Source of the DNA: Owenia fusiformis
Lineage: Eukaryota; Annelida; Polychaeta; Sabellida; Oweniidae
Reading direction: 5' to 3'
Assembly (NCBI GenBank): GCA_903813345.2
Contig: CAIIXF020000001.1
Span: forward strand, 20,045,915-20,109,914
Length of the DNA: 64,000 bases
In this document: one piece after another, positions 48,301 to 61,694 of the stretch
Numbering within the stretch: the first letter of the stretch is position 1
How the letters are laid out: every line of letters begins with the position of its first letter
Made by a program: the position numbers and the translations under genes
Notes under the pieces: model-generated
Told to the model about the DNA's origin: nothing
The model's input: the letters and a program-made list of their open reading frames with translations, nothing else
Databases searched by the model: none

Positions 48301-51300
48301 GGTGCATCAAGATCTATATGCAGCAGTGGTGAAATATGGTTGGAAGGATCAATACATGAAATATCAATGGGAGAAACTTCCGTATTTAAATTTTTCATCT
48401 TTGATTTCAGCAACTTTTGCTGCCTGCTTCACAACTTGTCTCAATCCTAAACACTGTGAGGAACTTGTCAGTACCAAAGAAACAACACAAGAAAGATACA
48501 ACCAGAACACTAGAAAATGAGGAGATAAGCAATGAGGTATGACATCTTCCTTTCATTTTAAAGGTCACCTTTTAAAATGCAAAGGGAGTGTACTTTTTCT
48601 TTCAACTTTAGTTTTTTCAATATTCATTTTGCGAAAGTTATAGTTCGAAACATTGATCAATATTTTCAAGAAGGTACAGTGTAGTTTTATATGCCATGAA
48701 TGCAAGTTAGAATCAATATACGTTCATGTAATCACACATTTTTTTATTCTTGTTTTAGAGAATTCACAAAGCTCTTGGACTGGAGGGACTGCCACGAGAC
48801 CTAAAGCTTGAAGACTACTGTCCCATCAGAGCCATCATACACAGTGTTGCACCAAACACCTCACCAAATAGGAGCCATTCTCATGTCTCTGCTAATACTT
48901 TCTTTGAAAACACAAATGGTAAGATGTGGAACAATTTATGAATAAATAAAACAGATGTACATGTACATTGATTCAGAATCTAAGATTTATAGACCCAAGA
49001 AAACACAACTTGTCTCTGTTATGAGCTTTCCTTAGTGTTTTATATTAGGCAGTATTAAATTCCATTTGATTGAACCTATCTTATACATGTATATTGTATA
49101 TGGTATATGATTGTGTATTTGTGCTATGCATATCCCTAACAACTATTGAGCAAAAGTTTAATGCATGAAATGATCATTGCATTGAAGCCTTTGAGACTAT
49201 AGATAAAACATCCAAAGTTTTCTTGTGCCAGTGATATATATCTGCCTATTTGATATTTTGTGCAATGTATGTTATGCCTATTCTTTGTTGTACCATATTT
49301 TAGGTTTCCCTGTAGAAGATCTGTATGTTAATCCAGTAGCTCCGTCTTGGCTGACATCTCAACTTCTTCAAAGGCATACACCACCTGCTGGTAGGCTTCT
49401 AGAACTTATATTTATCACAAAATCTTTAATGATATTCAAAACTTGTGAGATTTCATTGAAACGAAATGTGTTAACCATCAGGGTTTTTTATTGTCCTTTC
49501 AGATTAGGAATCTAACATTAATCATTTATAGTACTGTGCAACATCATAACTAGTTGGTTAAAAGTATAGAATATCTGTATCCATGATGATTAAATCGCCA
49601 TGTTAACTTTTAATTCCAGTTCTAGTCCAGAAACGTCATTTCCAGCAGAGAAAAAAGCGTGGAATGGGTCAAGAAGAAGAAGACAACTCATTCTCATTCA
49701 AACTCGGATCTGTAAGTTGATGATTTGAAAATTGAAAAATTGTGTGCACCATTAACGTGCAATGTATGCACAATGTTTTTTTTAAATTTTATTATTTATA
49801 TGTCAAACCATCAGTTTTTGTTAAAAACATGGTGAACTGGGATTTTAAATCACAAACCCAGCATTCCTGCGTCAATTCTTGCATGTACTCAATTTAAATA
49901 AACATTCAATGTAATGAATCTGTCACCAACAGGTATTTGACAAATTGAATGACAATAGAAACAAAAAACAAAACTTCAAGACGATGTTGTCTCAGTATCA
50001 AGACAAGCCAGACATCCAAGGGAAGCTAGAACAGGCATTTGGTAAAGGTTACGCTGCAGCTGAGAGTGAGCTAGGGGGCAAGGGTGTCACTACTGCCAAA
50101 CAAGGGTCAGCATTTGCAGGTACAGTGAGAAAGTTCCTCTGGTATGCTTTGGCCCTATGGCTCATCTACAATGCCCTGCAGTTGTTCAGCATGGCAGGAA
50201 CAAGTAAGTAGGATTTGAAAAATACTCATTTACTTTAAAGCATGTTCATTTCAGTCAAACTGTACACACAATGTTAAATTGCTACTGGTTTGTGATTTAC
50301 ATGATTGATCAGCATTTTATTGTTTGAATTAATGATGAATGAAAATTTGTTAATATAATATATAGTTTTACATGATAAATGCAATATTTTCTCATTAGTA
50401 TGGTCTTGTTGAACTTTGCAAGCATTGCTTGAATGAATTTTTTAACTATATATAGTGAGCTAATTCCAGTCCATTTGACTCCAGTAATTGAAATGATCTG
50501 ATTTTCTTCTTTCAGATATGAGGGGACTGAACATCCTACAACAGGAGAAGTATGAGATCAACCCTGAAGAAATCAATGTCTCCTTCAATGATGTGAAAGG
50601 GGTAAGTCATAAACATTGATGTCAAAGGGAAGATAAACTATGATATTGAACTGAATCACTTGAATTAAAGGAACATTGAACCATATAGATGTTAAAATGG
50701 ATAAAAATCTTTTTCTCGCATGATTTAAAACCTTCTATGATGATTCTGTTTTGGAAATATGTATCAAGTTGCATTTAAAGTCGGTTGTTGCCATGTTTAG
50801 ACCAAGGATTGAAAGTGTCCACAAGAAACCACATAAGATCTGGAGGCCCTGTTGCATATTTTTTCCTTTAATTTACAGGTAGATGAAGCCAAATCAGAGC
50901 TACAAGACATAGTTGAATATCTGAAAGACCCAGAGAGATTTAAAACATTAGGAGCTAAACTACCCAAAGGTAAACATTTCATAACATCTATTCTTATACT
51001 TATAGACAGGTTATTTTTTATTTTTGGTATTTTTGAAGTAATGGAACAAAGGACAAGAGCCCTTCCCCTCTTCACTTGAGCTGATGAACATTAAAATGTC
51101 ATGTGACTCACATTAATATCAATTTTTACATGAAGTATGGATTTCCTTCTGACATTTAATTTGCAATAAGTATGTTGATGTCTTGATTCATAATTTAACA
51201 TTTTACTGAAAAATAACAGAACACAGTTTAAATCAAGTAAAGTAAAGTTAAATTGTCAAGTTTTGTTGTATTTGTAGGTGTTTTGTTGGTAGGGCAGCCA

Positions 51301-54300
51301 GGTATTGGAAAAACTCTCCTTGCAAGAGCTGTAGCAGGTAAAAAATTAGTTTTAATGGCCCTTCAATCGTTTTTTTTTAATATGTGAAAACACGAAGGTA
51401 TCAGGATAAACCATGATAAAAATGTATACTGCCTGTCACAATGACATCTATTCAAATTATGCAAATAAAACCTCCAGCAGTTTAGTTGTCCCAAGCTATG
51501 TCACTATATTCAACAAGTTTAATTAATTGACAGAATATAGGGCAAACACTTGTTACTATTCCTTTTTTATATTTTATGGTGTAACTATTATACACTCCCT
51601 TGGGTGTCCAGATCTTATATAGATATTATATGGTTTTAATTAAAAAATAAATAAATAATAACAAAACCAAATATTATTAAAAATATAATAATGACTATAA
51701 GTAAAAAAAATTATTTTGCTATGATCACCCATATTTTGCAATTGGCAGTGGTTTAAATGGTCAAAATTCCTTCCGTAGGTGTCATTGGGAATTTTTCTAC
51801 AGCAAATGTCAGTGATATTCCAAATCAAAATTTTATTATTGTATCATACAGTTTATTCTGTAAAATTCAAGATTTTTCTCCTATAGGTCAAGCAGGGGTG
51901 CCCTATTTCCAGGTGTCAGGGTCTCAGTTTGACGAGATGTATGTAGGCGTTGGTGCCAAAAGGATTCGAGAATTGTTTGGTATGTCCTAATTTAAGCCAC
52001 TGCCCTATTTGCCTGCCATACATTTGGATGACACTTTTCAAATATTGCCATGAGAAATATGGCATGATTTGAAAAATGGCATACCAACTACCTGTTTGAA
52101 ACCATGCCTAATGGGTACGTTTTTGAAATCTGGCATGGTTTCATTCAAGTGAAGTTTAATTTAGTAAAGCACCTAAAATGCTATAAAAATACCTGACTTT
52201 AAACAGGGGAAGCTGGGGTTCCATTTTTCCAATGCTCTGGCTCAGAGTTTGATGAAATGTTTGTCGGCACTGGAGCAAAAAGAGTCAGACAACTGTTTGG
52301 TGAGTATTCTATGTAATTTGAGTCCAGTAATCTGGGCAAATAAAATGTGTGAACAAAAATTTTAACAATAGCATCATGTCTAGCGAGCAACCTTAACAGA
52401 AAATTGTCACAATTTTAAAATACTTTTGGGTCATATCATTCTTTCAACAATCATCTCTATTTTTCTAAAAAATTCCCATATAATGCATACTATTATGTGT
52501 TCATTTCTCTATAAATGTGTTCACCACATTTATCAATTAACTTAATAGACATTTGTGGCAAATTGAGCACTTTGAATCTTGAATAACTTTACCTATTTAT
52601 AACATACCACAGATCTTTTGGGATTTGAGATGATAAAGAATACATTGGTAGGTCAATTGAACATGTTGGTTGCACTTTTGTCACTCCCCTCTGATTCTGC
52701 CTTTAAACAGTTACTTCCTAACTAAAGTAGATACAGTAATCATTATGAAATTGCCTAGTTTAATCAGCATAATCAGCTTTTTCCAAGTTACCCCATTTCT
52801 TGTAAAATGTATCTTTTGCATATGACAGTGATATTCCATACTTGAAGTTATTGCAGCGAGTCAAGAATTTACCTTGCACTCAGCTGAAAATGTTTTAACC
52901 TTTTTCTCGCTTGATAAATGCATTATTCAAAATCAATACTATGCATGATGTAATCATGAAAATGTTAATATATATATAACATGTGTATGAATGTTATAGG
53001 TTCAGCTAAATTGCGAGCTCCTTGTGTGATATTCATAGATGAGATCGACACTCTGGGTGCTAAACGTACAAGCTCACAGATCCATCCCTATGCAAATCAA
53101 ACCATTAACCAGCTGCTTGCAGAGATGGATGGGTAAGCTACTCTCTCTCATTCCAGTCTACACTTAATGCCCTCTTGGCTTACAGCAAGGGTTACACCAA
53201 GTGCTTTTTAGGCTTACGGCAAATGTGCTTGAGGCTTATACTAAAAGCTTGCCAAGGTTGCACCAAATCCTCTAGGGCTACACCAAATCCTTTCTAGGGT
53301 TGCACCAAATGCTCTCAAGGGTTACACCAAATGCTTTCTAGGCTTACAGCAAATGCACTTGAGGGTTACACCAAATGCTTTCCAAGGATATATCAAATCC
53401 TCTCTCGGGTTACATCAAATGCTCTTCAAGGTTATAGAGAGAATCTTCATCCAAAACATTAAAATGGACTGGTCCAAGTTATCACTCACCTCAAAAAGAA
53501 TGAATGTACTTGCATGTATACTGATCTCTTATTATAAGACTTATATAACCTAGTGTAATATTGTGACATCTTTTTGTGCCTATTTTCATAAATCATAATA
53601 AAGTTATTGATATTGATAGACACTATTTTTATCCATGAATATATACAATGTTAAATACATTTACACACTCCCCTCCAGGTTCCAGCAGAATGAAGGTGTC
53701 ATAGTGCTGGGTGCTACAAATAGAAGGGACAATCTAGACAAGTAAGGCTATAAATATTAGGGCTTTGACAATGCATTGAAATTGCAGTGTTAGTTCTTAG
53801 ACCGCGGTCAGTTCAGTTCGAAATCTATTCGATTCAGTCTTTTACAGAACATTAATTCACATTAATTAATATCTATTCAGGAATGTTTAGTGAGCAAAAA
53901 GACCATTCACTGTCACATAAAATGATAATACCGTTGTAGCAAGTGAAGATTTTGGCCTTATTGATGCTCTTTTAAAAGTCTTAAAGCCCATTTTGGGGCT
54001 ATTTTACTACCCCAATGATATTCTTCATTGCCTGATACTAAAATTGATATTCATTTTTATTGAGACTAGATCCAAGAAATTTTTGAATCTGGAAATAGTA
54101 TTATTCCTTACAAATAATTCACATGTCCATGTATTTTAGAGCTCTTTTGAGACCAGGAAGGTTTGATGTAGAGGTGAGGATATTCTCCCCTGACTTGAAG
54201 GGCAGAAAAGACATAATAGAACTCTATCTCAAGAAGGTCACGGCAGATTCAAGTAAGTATGCACATCTCAGATTGACTCAAAGTGATATGTAGTGGCTGA

Positions 54301-56829
54301 CACAAGTAACTGATGTTCCCATACATCACTTATTACAAGCCAGATAAACCATAAGGATTTTTTCAAGCTTGTTACTGAACTGCCTTGTAAATCAGGTACC
54401 TTGAGCACTCTTATAAAGCACTACATAGTCTGACTTACTGTATAACTGAAGCTTGTCATAGGCTGACAACTTTATTTATAAAATTATATTTGCTCTTGTC
54501 TGACAATGTAAGATTACATCTTCTAATTGGCATGGCTTTAATTATTTATACACACCAGTGATGGTTGATATTGGATAAAGTAGATAAAAATGGAGGCAAG
54601 TAGACATTGAGATGCGATCACTGAAATTGTATTCTTTATTTTCGCCAGCTTGCGATTGTGAGAGGTTGGCACGGGGCACTACTGGCTTCACAGGGGCAGA
54701 CATAGAGAACATGGTGAATCAGGCAGCCCTGAAGGCAGCTAAAGATGGCAGTCTGGCTGTGTCTATGGCAGACTTGGAGTGGGCAAGGGACAAGGTACTA
54801 ATGGGTAAGTAAATTCAAGGAGAGTTCAGTAAAATATGTATTAAGTAAACAGTTAAAAGTTTAAGTATAAGGGATTAATAGAGATTCTGTATAACATAAT
54901 TATAATTGATGAGAATGCACAAAAGGCAGTAAGAGAGGCAACACATAGTTTTAGTTTTATTTCACTGTCATTGTTGTAGGGCCTGCAAAGAAGAACAGAA
55001 TTCCTGATGAGGAGACTAACTGGATGACAGCATACCATGAAGCTGGTCATGTCCTTGTAGCCCACTACACCAAGAATTCAACACCCCTACATAAAGTCAC
55101 CATCATACCCAGAGGAATGTCACTCGGCCATGTGAGTATATCATTATTTCATAGATCTAGATTTAGTATAGTTTATATGTTGAATTGGGTGCTTCAAATA
55201 TTACCTCTTGCACTGACACCCCCTTCCTATTTTGGCTGAACTCCAATATTGCATCCAAGGATGTACGTTGACACATGATTAACAAGCTTGAGATACTGTA
55301 AATGTAGAGAGAATATATGAGCTATGCTATGTAGTAATACTTATTGATTTTTGGGTTCATGTTTTATGTTGTTTCAGACTGCCTACATCCCTGAAAAAGA
55401 ACAATACAACCATAGCAGGACACAGCTGATGGCCCAGATGGACACTGCTATGGGAGGTAGAGTGGCTGAAGAACTCATATATGGAGCTGATAAAGTCACA
55501 ACAGGTATTGCTTTGAGAGTAAATCCATATTTTTAGTTCTGTAAGGCTATGTGTGGTTCTATTTTCCTCAGACTGCTTTGAAATGATGTAATCCATGTTC
55601 TGTATAATACTCATTTTGTTCAACTTTTGTTAACTTAAGCTTTTATAAATGGAAATTTGTTAGGGAAGGGACGATGCTTTGCATGTATTAAATAATACTA
55701 ATCCCTTCATATTTTGTATTGTCACTCATTTTTCTGTACATGTACATGCATAATGTATTCATATATGTAATGTTCTGCAGGAGCATCCAGTGATTTCCAG
55801 AGTGCCACGGGTATAGCCACCGCCATGGTGAGACGGTTTGGCATGTCAGATAAGGTACTTCATTCCTTTGCTCAAAATAAAATGCTCAAAGGCAATTCCT
55901 TTGCTCAAAAATAAACTGCTCAATTAAGGAATAAAACTGGTCAAATTTGATTTGATGATAAATATTTTGTCATTACATATCATTGTTTTTGTTTCATCTC
56001 TGTACAATTTAAACAGACTATGCTATGCTATGTAGAATGTCAATACTGTCAATTAACGTTTGAAGTAAATACTGTAGAATAAAATACTTAAGTAAAGGGA
56101 TATGAAAAATATTATTAAACAATATTGTGATGAGAAAACAAATGCATGTACTTAGAAAATATTTCTTTTTAGGTTGGTGTTCGGGTGTTCAGTGATGATG
56201 ATGGTGCAGATGGGGGATTGACCATGGTGAAAGTGAATGATGTCAGCCCTGCAACTCAAGAACTTATAGATAGTGAAATAAAAAGACTGCTTCAGGTAAG
56301 GGACAATTTAGAGTCAAATTCAAATATGGGATACAATAAACTGGTAAAATCCAAAAGCCACTGGGATCAGCCTCGTGTTTGGAATAGCATTTAAAGGTTC
56401 ATTAATAAGAAAGTCAGTGGAAGATTTGAGAGGTTTTCAGATTACAGAGGCATTGAGATATACAGGTTTTACATTTAGGTCATGTTAACATAAAATAGAT
56501 TAAATTAATATGAAATTAACATTACAACTGGTTCATTACACAAATCGAACTGTATGATGCACTTTGCATGCTTGTTTGATGTAAAAAATGTAAGGATCTT
56601 GCTTAGATCTTTTCATTTAATTTAAGACATTTAGAAATAAACAGCATACTGTATTTTAACATTATTGTGTGTTTTTCAGGAGTCATACGAGAGGGCAAAA
56701 GCAATATTAAAAGCACACTCTGTGGAACATAAACTCTTAGCTCAAGCTCTAATGAAATATGAGACACTAGATGTTGATGAAGTTAAAACTATAGTAGAGG
56801 GAAGAAAATTGATCAAGCAACCCTTGTGA
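45321..56829 (+). CDS. YME1L1: Mitochondrial i-AAA protease YME1L (ATP-dependent zinc metalloprotease), 19 exons per transcript, 728 aa
   Basis: Exons: 45321-45350, 48411-48536, 48759-48918, 49304-49390, 49620-49711, 49933-50203, 50516-50601, 50879-50969, 51278-51337, then 51887-51979 or 52207-52299, 53000-53132, 53679-53741, 54140-54252, 54649-54804, 54980-55131, 55378-55504, 55781-55854, 56173-56295, 56680-56829. An FtsH-family protease of the inner membrane, with domains facing the intermembrane space. N terminus [10 protein letters not shown] resembles human [23 protein letters not shown] matches the human N-domain; the membrane span is about 233-253. AAA+ motifs: Walker A GQPGIGKT (320-327, unusual), pore loop 1 at 352-355, Walker [10 protein letters not shown] (374-382), RPGRFD. 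Protease: HEAGH (540-544), GASSD Asp618 as likely third zinc ligand. Human isoform 1 is 773 aa. The pore-loop exon is duplicated (separate entries). Confidence 0.95.
45721..46583. mobile_element. TIR element, ~155-bp near-perfect inverted ends, in YME1L intron 1
   Basis: The left arm 45721-45875 and right arm about 46430-46583 are reverse complements through CTACAATCAAATTTTTTATT, AAGGAAAGAATGTGATGTAA, TTCTATGTCATCCATCGGAC and GTTACATCGTGGAACGCAG. The core of about 540 bp has no transposase but contains the CACGTG cluster listed below. Target duplication not identified. Confidence 0.85.
46268..46356. promoter_or_regulatory. Cluster of CACGTG (E-box/CLEAR-like) sites
   Basis: Four CACGTG palindromes at 46284-46289, 46321-46326, 46340-46345 and 46351-46356, several in the extended form GTCACGTGA, plus near-matches CACATG and CACGTC. 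bHLH-zip factors (USF, MITF/TFE, MYC/MAX) bind such sites. They lie inside the TIR element in YME1L intron 1, about 950 bp downstream of the start codon. Function is inference. Confidence 0.45.
46637..47190. other. Inverted-repeat block with GGGGC(A/G)TTTTG motifs and an unassigned open frame
   Basis: Outer ends CACGTGGTACTAACTC (near 46625) and, inverted, CACGCGGTACTAACTC (near 47180). Inner foldback arms are 47021-47063 and 47111-47154, built on CCAAAACGCCCC. A minus-strand frame of 108 codons (46728-47054) fills much of the block; I do not recognise it, it ends without domain features, and it may be chance or part of a mobile element. In YME1L intron 1. Confidence 0.5.
47190..47570 (+). 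pseudogene. Non-LTR retrotransposon C-terminal relic in YME1L intron 1
   Basis: Translation [36 protein letters not shown], then [14 protein letters not shown] and, after a shift, [20 protein letters not shown] followed by a stop. This is the conserved post-RT tail of CR1-like elements. No RT domain remains. Confidence 0.8.
47636..48112. mobile_element. TIR element with ~50-bp inverted ends and C-rich tracts
   Basis: Left TTAGGGGCGGGGTCAAAATA continuing through TTCATATGGAGACGAAAGTA; the right end is its reverse complement, ending TTTTGACCCCGCCCCTTAC. Just inside each end is a C-rich run (CCCCCCCACCCCCCC at left, CCCCCTCCCCCC at right). 477 bp. In YME1L intron 1. Confidence 0.75.
51887..51979 (+). 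CDS. YME1L1: YME1L pore-loop exon, version a (Tyr pore loop)
   Basis: 93 nt, phase 1 in and out, acceptor TTCTCCTATAG, donor GTATGT. Codes residues 335-365 with pore loop MYVG (Tyr353) and continues [11 protein letters not shown], the form found in yeast Yme1 ([14 protein letters not shown]). Fits precisely between the Walker A exon and the Walker B exon. Alternative to 52207-52299. Confidence 0.9.
52097..52143 (+). ncRNA. Perfect 12-bp RNA stem in the intron between the two pore-loop exons
   Basis: TGAAACCATGCC (52097-52108) pairs fully with GGCATGGTTTCA (52132-52143), loop 23 nt, ending 63 nt before exon b. A possible cis-element for exon choice; it could equally be a chance or repeat-derived hairpin. 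Not claimed as an independent RNA gene. Confidence 0.4.
52207..52299 (+). CDS. YME1L1: YME1L pore-loop exon, version b (Phe pore loop)
   Basis: 93 nt, phase 1 in and out, acceptor GACTTTAAACAG, donor GTGAGT. Codes for the same 31-residue segment with pore loop MFVG (Phe353) and [11 protein letters not shown]. Human YME1L also has Phe here (MFVG). Eight residues differ from version a: positions 336 Q/E, 341 Y/F, 344 V/C, 348 Q/E, 353 Y/F, 356 V/T, 361 I/V, 363 E/Q. Because the length is a multiple of 3, including both exons would keep the frame but duplicate part of the AAA core. Confidence 0.9.
53165..53440. repeat. ~24-bp minisatellite in a YME1L intron
   Basis: Units of the form GGGTTACACCAAATGCTTTC and GGCTTACAGCAAATGC recur about a dozen times, starting some 30 bp after exon 53000-53132. 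Open frames here are repeat-derived. Confidence 0.85.
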
Positions 56830-59800: not shown

Positions 59801-61694
59801 TACTAGATAATAATAATAATATACACAATTTCTTTGAGATCTCTATTGTACGAGTCCAGCATACAATAGCATAAGATTTACATTACATTCATTGATCTTA
59901 AACCTCTACCTACATGCACATAGAGTTAGGTTTAAACAGGGGTTCCCAGCCTGTTTACAGTCGTATTACATGTATAGCTCTTTACATGTAAGGTAGTTTT
60001 TTTCTTGATCTGTAATAAAAGATTCCTTCAGTATATGAGTCCGGCGAATGTTGAAATGTACTATAGGAGACATGTTTAAATGTATTGTAGGAAACATGTA
60101 GTAATGTAGTGTAGGAGACCTGTTGAAGTGTTTTGTAGGAGACGTTTCATGTTGAAATGTATTCTTGGAGACATGCTTATGTTGAAATGTATTGTAGGAG
60201 ACATGTGTCATATTGAAATGTACTGTAGGAGACATGTTTATATCGAAATGTACTGTAGGAGACATGCTTCATGTTGAAATGTTCTGTAGGAGACATGTTT
60301 ATATCAAAATGTACTGTAGGAGACATGTTTATATCAAAATGTACTATAGGAGACATGTTTCATGCTGAAATGTATTGTTGGAGACATGTTCACAGTAAAA
60401 TTTACACTACAAAACATAACATGTTTCAAGCTGATGCTTACATATTGAGGCGTTTTTATCTTTAAAATGCAATGTTAACTGTTAAGCGAGGAGTCCTTAA
60501 ATGTGCTTTATGAACATACATGTTTACTTATTAATTTTAAGAGACACACTTTAGATGAACTATGACAGATATAATCATGTACTTGTGTAATTTTGCAATA
60601 CATTTCTTGGATATTAAGTTGAAGACATAATGGAGGCCGTCAATTATAAGTTTAATGTTAAAATCGATTAAATCGAATGGAATTGAAGTTACAAAAGAAA
60701 GACATGTAACTACAAACTAGTAACTTCACTCAGTATAAGATATGCAGTTGAATATTTTAAAAACAGGAATTTGGAGGAAATCTCTTTCTTCAGTGATACA
60801 TTGTACATCTGCAAAAAATTTTAAAAGTATAAAGGTATAATGATATTTACATTACATTATAACATTATAAAAGCCATGTTGTTCTTCCACCATTATGAAA
60901 TTCATTATTCTACTGATAACCAAAACTTTCTAACTGAAACATATTTTAAACATTTTTGGAAAATTATCCCATATTGTGATTTGTCTAAAGGTTATGATCT
61001 TAAGTATAAGGCAGTACAGTGCACTGTAGCTTATGAATCTCTTTAACTGGCATTATGCTGTTGAGCCTACAAGCTGGGACCATATTTTAGTCTACATCCT
61101 TTTCTTTGTTTCTAGCTATGTTCATGATGAGTTGTTCACCTTGAAAGGTTCCATTGATTCTAAGATGGAATTCCTTTAATCATGGGTTCCACTTTGAAAA
61201 GCTCCATTAATCATGAGATGGATTTCCTTCAACTGTGGGTTCCAGAGTAAAAAGACCAATTAAGGGAATTCCTTAAATCTCAGGCTCCGTTATTTAGATT
61301 GGATCGGTGAATGTTGAATATTGTATTATGCTTCAGGCCCCTTTTAACTGGTACTGTACATTAACAAGTGACTAGTATATGTAGTGTTTCTCATATGTAG
61401 ATGGAAATAATGAGACTATATTACAATGCGCCATGTCTATCTGAAACCAAAGTACACATTCCATTAATCACTTTAATGAAAAAAATGTATTAATACACAC
61501 ATCTCAGAAGGCAATTGCAAATCTATGTACAGATTATGTACATTTTTTAACCTGTGATACCAGACATATATGCAGTGATAGCTATACATTTATGAAAATA
61601 TTAAGTTGTTTTTTCTTTGAAATTAATCATACATACATTTATAGATCTACTTTTTCATGAATGGAAAAACAATGTTTGTTACCTTCTACCTCTG
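56830..61694. other. Region between convergent YME1L and DGK genes
   Basis: Must contain the YME1L 3' UTR (candidate hexamers ATTAAA 57262-57267 and AATAAA 57469-57474) and, on the other strand, the DGK 3' UTR. A 125-codon AT-rich frame at 57445-57822 has no family resemblance or splice context and is not called. The minisatellite at 60045-60400 is the only clear structure. Confidence 0.45.
60045..60400. repeat. ~30-38 bp minisatellite, about ten copies
   Basis: The unit is TGAAATGTACTGTAGGAGAC followed by ATGTTTATATC or ATGCTTCATGT, with variants. The right part is more regular than the left. Open frames on both strands are by-products. Confidence 0.85.

Follow-up and report, generated by a model that had tools for sequence, protein, structure and literature searches.

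YME1L functions in the processing of OPA1 and in quality control of the inner membrane. The human protein is described as a homohexamer built from a single kind of protomer, and in yeast YME1 the pore loop 1 residue that touches the substrate is Y354 (excerpts of PMC12994072). Duplicated exons are known from several other mitochondrial proteins. Exons 4a and 4b of vertebrate OGDH are mutually exclusive, which they owe to distant branch points located close to the 5' splice site (excerpts of PMC7969005). In nematodes, platyhelminths, annelids and molluscs, exons 6a and 6e of coq-2 constitute the rhodoquinone switch of COQ2; the e-type carries Leu204 and Ser243 and the a-type Phe204 and Ala243, and in the excerpted text both exon types are reported only from rhodoquinone-making animals (PMC7434440). 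Exon 10 of the oyster alternative oxidase (AOX) is duplicated, and its variant exon rises under air exposure (excerpts of PMC5589949). Mutually exclusive exons are recognized, as excerpts of PMC5740500 put it, by junction reads of each exon that bridge the other, with no reads joining the pair.

Here we describe a pair of homologous exons within the AAA+ module of a YME1L-type gene of the annelid Owenia fusiformis. On the basis of exon anatomy and of the traces of selection, we consider it likely that this pair is the product of an ancient tandem exon duplication in a single YME1L gene, and that the two exons are spliced in a mutually exclusive manner. The animal can thus probably make two versions of YME1L from one gene.

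The YME1L gene and its paired exons

The gene lies on the + strand of the window, i.e. the entire 64,000-nucleotide stretch of DNA that was analyzed (G000:C1:20045915-20109914; Table 1). Starting with the exon at 49620, its reading frame stays open as far as the TGA at 56827-56829, whether exon A or exon B is taken. All 17 introns of the model (with both exons counted in) are of the GT-AG type, and the exon at 49933-50203 shows a hydrophobic stretch. The catalytic part combines an AAA domain (PF00004) and a peptidase M41 domain (PF01434) in one chain, both scoring above their cut-offs with a query that had one wrong residue at the 54252/54649 junction. The MDGF motif of inter-subunit signalling (ISS) is split across the end of the Walker B exon and the exon that follows. 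The best PDB match to the 448-residue catalytic part is yeast YME1 (6az0; E 1.7e-139, 468.7 bits), with FtsH (7vhp; 451.7 bits) and AFG3L2 (6nyy; 371.2 bits) ranking lower, while the 206-residue AAA part alone places two-domain p97/VCP-like chains at the top of the PDB ranking. The domain composition and the match to YME1 bear out the assignment to YME1L, the i-AAA protease, in the original prediction, which had been made from the nucleotide sequence alone. Among the best candidates scored, the genome has ten M41 matches at three places, of which one is the YME1L gene and the other two are on contig C3. One of the latter, an m-AAA-like locus at C3:33.84 Mb, shows in the 1.9 kb read a single MFVG pore segment, which is encoded by the same exon as Walker A. 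Judged from these matches, the YME1L gene is the sole i-AAA-type gene found among the best candidates scored in the genome.

Table 1. Coordinates of the YME1L features in the window, and of the coq-2 exons elsewhere in the same genome
Feature	Position	Strand	Length	Remarks
Modelled YME1L coding exons	49620..56829	+		Pre-catalytic region to stop; model begins after start codon/first exons
Walker A exon	51278..51337	+		GQPGIGKT; upstream of the pair, donor common to A and B
Intron upstream of exon A	51338..51886	+	549 nt	z -0.41 to 0.34 over three folded windows
Exon A	51887..51979	+	93 nt	31-residue AAA+ segment; MYVG pore loop, Gln336, Tyr341, Gln348, Val356
Intervening intron	51980..52206	+	227 nt	Strongly structured RNA by folding
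Predicted hairpin 1	52024..52087	+		Core 52035-52075
Predicted hairpin 2	52093..52147	+		Perfect 12-bp stem 52097-52108/52132-52143
Exon B	52207..52299	+	93 nt	31-residue AAA+ segment; MFVG pore loop, Glu336, Phe341, Glu348, Thr356
Intron downstream of exon B	52300..52999	+	700 nt	z -1.3 to 1.52 over five folded windows
Walker B exon	53000..53132	+		VIFIDE; downstream of the pair, acceptor common to A and B
coq-2 e-type exon	start C2:21738589		131 nt	TLNWG...YSHQ
coq-2 a-type exon	start C2:21742219		134 nt	TFNWG...YAHQ

Exons A and B are of equal length and phase (1-1), have GT-AG borders, and encode alternative forms of one 31-residue stretch, whose residue numbers, 335-365, are labels resting on the N-terminus assumed in the original prediction. 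That prediction had described paired exons with equal phase and intact borders, no stop or frameshift in either, 23 of the 31 residues identical, and synonymous differences in 16 of those 23 codons; each of these points was recovered on re-examination and recount. At the nucleotide level the exons agree at 65 of 93 positions, with the differences distributed as 8, 4 and 16 over the first, second and third codon positions. In tblastn searches of the window the exon A peptide matches itself and exon B (E 2e-14), with E at 0.69 or more for everything else; exon B behaves likewise, and no third copy is found. A search of the genome at E up to 10 matches both peptides to the A and B exons, the m-AAA-like C3 locus and, weakly, two further sites on C7 and C10, and it recovers no further i-AAA-type locus.

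Some other features of the gene and its surroundings were also recorded. The Walker A motif, GQPGIGKT, has Ile at a position that is Thr in 75 and Cys in three of 78 aligned bacterial FtsH proteins, and Gln at one that is Pro in 49 and Gln in three of the 78, in a sample that is biased to exon B patterns. Upstream of the gene lies an inverted repeat (window 45734-45886/46420-46572) with 153-nt arms that are 94% complementary and 533 nt apart, which resembles the terminal repeats of mobile elements. Downstream lies a nested tandem repeat array (window 60048-60405) with periods of 24, 30, 61 and 91.

Residues exchanged between the exons and the age of the copies

The two peptides were compared with 11 references: yeast YME1, FtsH 7vhp, FtsH 2ce7, seven fetched FtsH proteins (seven of eight loci, L096 being left out as identical to L044) and the m-AAA-like exon of the same genome (27 residues). 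A larger set comprised 79 bacterial loci found with patterns from the exon B version of the query (including EAGVPFFQ and FDEMFVGT), 78 of which were aligned; as the patterns derive from exon B, the conservation counts over these 78 loci lean towards B. Against the 11 references, exon A is exceptional in having Gln at position 336 (Glu in 11/11), Tyr at 341 (Phe in 11/11) and Gln at 348 (Asp or Glu in 11/11), and exon B in having Thr at 356 (Val in ten references, Leu in one). At position 344 the Val of exon A occurs in one reference and the Cys of exon B in none, at 353 the Tyr of A occurs in two and the Phe of B in nine, and at 361 the Ile of A is shared with yeast YME1 only and the Val of B with the other ten. 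At position 363 neither the Glu of A nor the Gln of B is present in the ten references that reach this position. Overall, exon B is closer than A to ten of the references, and the two tie on yeast YME1 with 23/31 identities each. The FtsH family model scores the A isoform at 596.2 bits and the B isoform at 600.6, against a curated cut-off of 600, and removal of both exons reduces the score to 508.0, a loss of about 90 bits. Given that the reference residue is kept by B at 336, 341 and 348, and by A at 356, neither exon is simply a dead copy.

The original prediction had presented the Tyr/Phe change at position 353 as the key swap. This change does fall on the pore-loop-1 aromatic, because residue 353 aligns with Y354 of yeast YME1 in the alignment to 6az0, where the Tyr that had been stated for the yeast protein is also seen. 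As an account of what distinguishes the exons it proved too narrow, since the swaps at 336, 341, 348 and 356 are more unusual. Besides yeast YME1, one of seven bacterial FtsH proteins in a sample collected without the exon B patterns has Tyr as its pore aromatic, and as Phe and Tyr are naturally exchanged at this position, the change at 353 taken alone may be mild. It is plausible that the isoforms differ in unfolding force, with the candidate residues now widened from 353 to include 336, 341, 348 and 356. Position 341 lies 12 residues before the pore aromatic, which is the same spacing as that from F175 to W187 in Msp1. F175 of Msp1 contacts a residue of the ISS, and Yme1 is described as using three such phenylalanines (excerpts of PMC7018516). 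Judged from this spacing, position 341 might correspond to the phenylalanine that docks the ISS motif, and the exchange of exons might hence affect both the grip on the substrate and its coupling to ATP.

If the exons are mutually exclusive, as we favor, every mature mRNA would carry exactly one of the pair, and one gene would give rise to two i-AAA protomers, identical except for a segment that begins directly behind the Walker A helix and extends through pore loop 1. Exon A might retune the pulling aromatic (353) together with the pocket for the DGF motif of the neighboring subunit (341), and exon B might alter residue 356, three past the pore aromatic. The outcome would be a modest shift in grip or ATP coupling and not a new function. 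The alternative that survives best, though we regard it as unlikely, is that both exons are indeed used alternatively but that the isoforms are functionally equivalent, so that the pair persists as either one serves. The natural exchange of Phe and Tyr at the pore aromatic, seen in yeast YME1 and in one of the seven independently fetched FtsH proteins, and the retention of 23 of 31 residues are both compatible with this. It fits poorly with swaps at positions that are invariant (336 and 341) or acidic (348) in all 11 references, or Val in ten of them (356); furthermore, a redundant copy would be expected to be lost over the time implied by the saturated synonymous change between the exons.

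By the Nei-Gojobori count, 17.5 of 22.2 synonymous sites differ between A and B, as against 10.5 of 70.8 nonsynonymous sites (pS 0.79, pN 0.15; Fisher p = 3e-8). The corresponding dN is 0.16-0.19, whereas dS is 1.29 with YN00, 3.1 by maximum likelihood, and undefined, i.e. saturated, with NG86, which points to protein-level constraint on both copies. We also simulated neutral decay by letting one copy drift from its present-day sequence, with 20,000 runs per starting copy. At 0.8, 1.3 and 2.0 substitutions per site, none of 40,000 runs in each case ended with at least 23 identical residues and no stop; at lower divergence, 2 of 40,000 did so at 0.5 substitutions per site and 545 of 40,000 at 0.3. 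A synonymous distance of 1.3-3.1, split over both lineages, corresponds to a divergence of about 0.65-1.6 for a single copy. Taken together, the contrast between synonymous and nonsynonymous change and the simulations suggest that both copies are most likely old and have long been held as protein.

These results also bear on the idea that only one exon is used and that the other is an unused relic of the duplication. Ranked with a small PWM trained on the other sites of the gene, the acceptors of both exons are among the weaker ones, with that of A 14th and that of B 16th of 17 (score -0.79 for B), in exon A two positions with an acidic residue in each of the 11 references are occupied by Gln, and the A isoform falls just below the curated FtsH cut-off, all of which would be in keeping with a relic. 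The strong synonymous excess, the complete failure of neutral runs at every divergence of 0.8 and above, and the intact splice sites and uninterrupted frames of both exons nevertheless make such a relic improbable.

Introns, RNA structure and the control of splicing

All four combinations of the exons (A, B, both or neither) are in frame. Hence, nonsense-mediated decay cannot enforce exclusivity, and a mechanism based on frame shift and decay, which would require joint inclusion or skipping to disrupt the frame, was ruled out. The open frame would in principle also permit normal inclusion of both exons, so that the pore-loop segment would occur twice in the protein. Scored with the FtsH model, such a protein reaches 634.6 bits, more than with either exon alone. 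However, the best stretch of this match begins only where exon B does, at residue 86, and the score is therefore taken as a sum of overlapping stretches and not as a single AAA+ fold; as a gauge of joint inclusion the family score was set aside as uninformative. With 31 residues repeated between Walker A and Walker B, the ATPase core would be expected to be split, and we know of no AAA+ protease with a pore-loop segment repeated in this way. Routine joint inclusion is accordingly very improbable in our assessment.

The intron between the two exons is predicted to be unusually structured. Its minimum free energy is -56.1 kcal/mol (z -3.98), with none of 200 shuffles as stable, and a second run with 60 shuffles gave z -3.61. 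The lowest z among 26 windows from 15 other introns, partly tiled and with 60 shuffles each, is -1.3, in a comparison that leaves out the last intron (56296-56679) and has borders one base off for several of the others. Two hairpins are predicted within this intron. The core of the first has mean pair probabilities of 0.92-0.99 over four folding contexts, with 0.57-0.86 for its outer pairs in the isolated intron, and the stem of the second has 0.99-1.0 over the four contexts. From the donor of exon A to the branch point of exon B, placed at 52176 by motif, the linear distance is 196 nt; with this motif-guessed branch point, the path would shorten to about 77 nt with both hairpins closed and to 108 nt with only their cores formed. 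A base helix that would reduce it to 18 nt has a probability of 0 in three of the four contexts and forms only in the isolated intron. Steric blocking generally requires a donor and a branch point to be within roughly 50-60 nt of each other. Steric exclusion of A-to-B splicing is thus a possible effect of the predicted structure, with the path of about 77-108 nt exceeding this limit. Of the steps in the proposed mechanism, the least certain is this one, in which the structured intron probably disfavors the joining of A to B.

Other routes to exclusivity were considered. A distant branch point of the OGDH type was rejected, as an AG only 36 nt upstream of the exon B acceptor limits the AG-free zone and speaks against it. 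Docking or selector pairing among the introns yielded nothing decisive in a test that is crude for long introns (shuffles as stable: 3/40 for i1-i2, 35/40 for i2-i3 and 38/40 for i1-i3), and the lowest of six intron-exon pairings was that of i2 with exon A, with 2/40 shuffles as stable. The donors of A and B are mid-range, ranking 9th and 10th of 17 by a small PWM from the other sites of the gene. A 13-mer, CAGTGATATTCCA, recurs in the introns on either side of the exon pair (51810-51822 and 52826-52838), and may reflect chance or a common splicing element.

No known structured RNA or miRNA is matched at the Rfam gathering score, either in the window or at the C6 locus described below, and eight sub-threshold Rfam matches within 51338-52999 were judged to be due to chance. 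Derivation of the 227-nt intron from a repeat was likewise rejected, as in a genome search that skips very common words it matches only itself. A 14-mer from one arm of hairpin 2 occurs at eight genomic places, versus none for the reversed control, and folding of about 170 nt around each of the seven other places gives a long hairpin at only one. This locus (L084; G000:C6:29930910-29931210) contains a long, near-perfect hairpin, with the arm TTTGAAACCATGCC in common with hairpin 2 of the YME1L intron, and looks like a precursor miRNA. That the pair is an assembly artefact, with two alleles or paralogues placed head to tail, has a negligible probability, with nothing found in its favor: the 65/93 identity is far under that expected of alleles, the longest exact stretch common to the flanking introns is 13 nt, the intervening intron occurs at one genomic place only (in the search that skips very common words), and the pair is encoded at a single locus.

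Comparison with known exon switches

The host genome itself contains a coq-2 gene with both alternative exon types (G000:C2:21736833-21746029; L097-L102). The Phe and Ala of its a-type exon are 39 residues apart, which equals 243 minus 204, and the spacing in the e-type, one residue shorter, is 38. The presence of both exon types implies that the host is probably able to make rhodoquinone, and gives a mitochondrial exon switch a precedent in this very animal. The genome also has an alternative oxidase gene (G000:C8:13310133-13312062); differing from the oyster AOX, no second copy of its last exon was found in the 2.55 kb read at that locus. A search for COX1 gave no match in the assembly. By analogy with these systems, a hypoxia- or stress-linked switch in YME1L would be a natural hypothesis. 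In a more elaborate form of it, which appears to us unlikely, a facultatively anaerobic animal would re-gear its i-AAA protease with oxygen or stress. The exon chosen would determine the gripping aromatic of pore loop 1 as well as the pocket that senses the nucleotide state of the neighboring subunit, isoforms produced together would assemble into mixed hexamers of graded pull, in step with the coq-2 switch between ubiquinone and rhodoquinone, and the structured intron would act as sensor or gate.

Among the matches listed in a search of full-text literature (mostly without subscription papers and preprints), none reported a switch of pore-loop exons, whether in YME1L or in a different AAA+ protease. 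In this incomplete coverage, YME1L together with mutually exclusive exons was matched by no paper, and a further search gave only the OGDH paper. In its exon architecture, the YME1L pair is comparable to the systems described above. The OGDH exons, as far as the excerpts show, share with it an ancient duplication in a mitochondrial protein and a stable RNA hairpin within an intervening intron whose length is restricted, but OGDH attains exclusivity by distant branch points, in contrast to the AG found shortly before the exon B acceptor of YME1L. In coq-2 as in YME1L, a mitochondrial enzyme has two homologous alternative exons that are almost the same length, and the swap affects otherwise conserved residues of the working site. 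The coq-2 switch differs in that RNA data and the deletion of exons in C. elegans have established it (excerpts of PMC7434440); the two coq-2 exons of the Owenia genome, at 131 and 134 nt, are about 3.5 kb apart, and theirs is a substrate switch in another protein and not a change in a motor. The oyster AOX, according to its excerpted description, is similarly an inner-membrane protein of mitochondria in which one exon copy is conserved and the other changed around key sites, although there the duplicated exon is terminal.

Yeast YME1 (6az0) shares with the Owenia protein its family, Walker A and Walker B, pore loop 1, the DGF motif and the HExxH zinc site. In contrast to human YME1L, which is described with a single protomer, the Owenia gene has the exons for protomers of two types. 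Should both exons be in use, they would provide a natural, matched pair of AAA+ motors with eight differences within one 31-residue segment, to which pore loop 1 and a portion of the inter-subunit signalling pocket belong. Such a pair would be a swap experiment made by nature on the determinants of grip and ATP coupling. YME1L would then join COQ2, AOX and OGDH as a mitochondrial protein tuned via duplicated exons.
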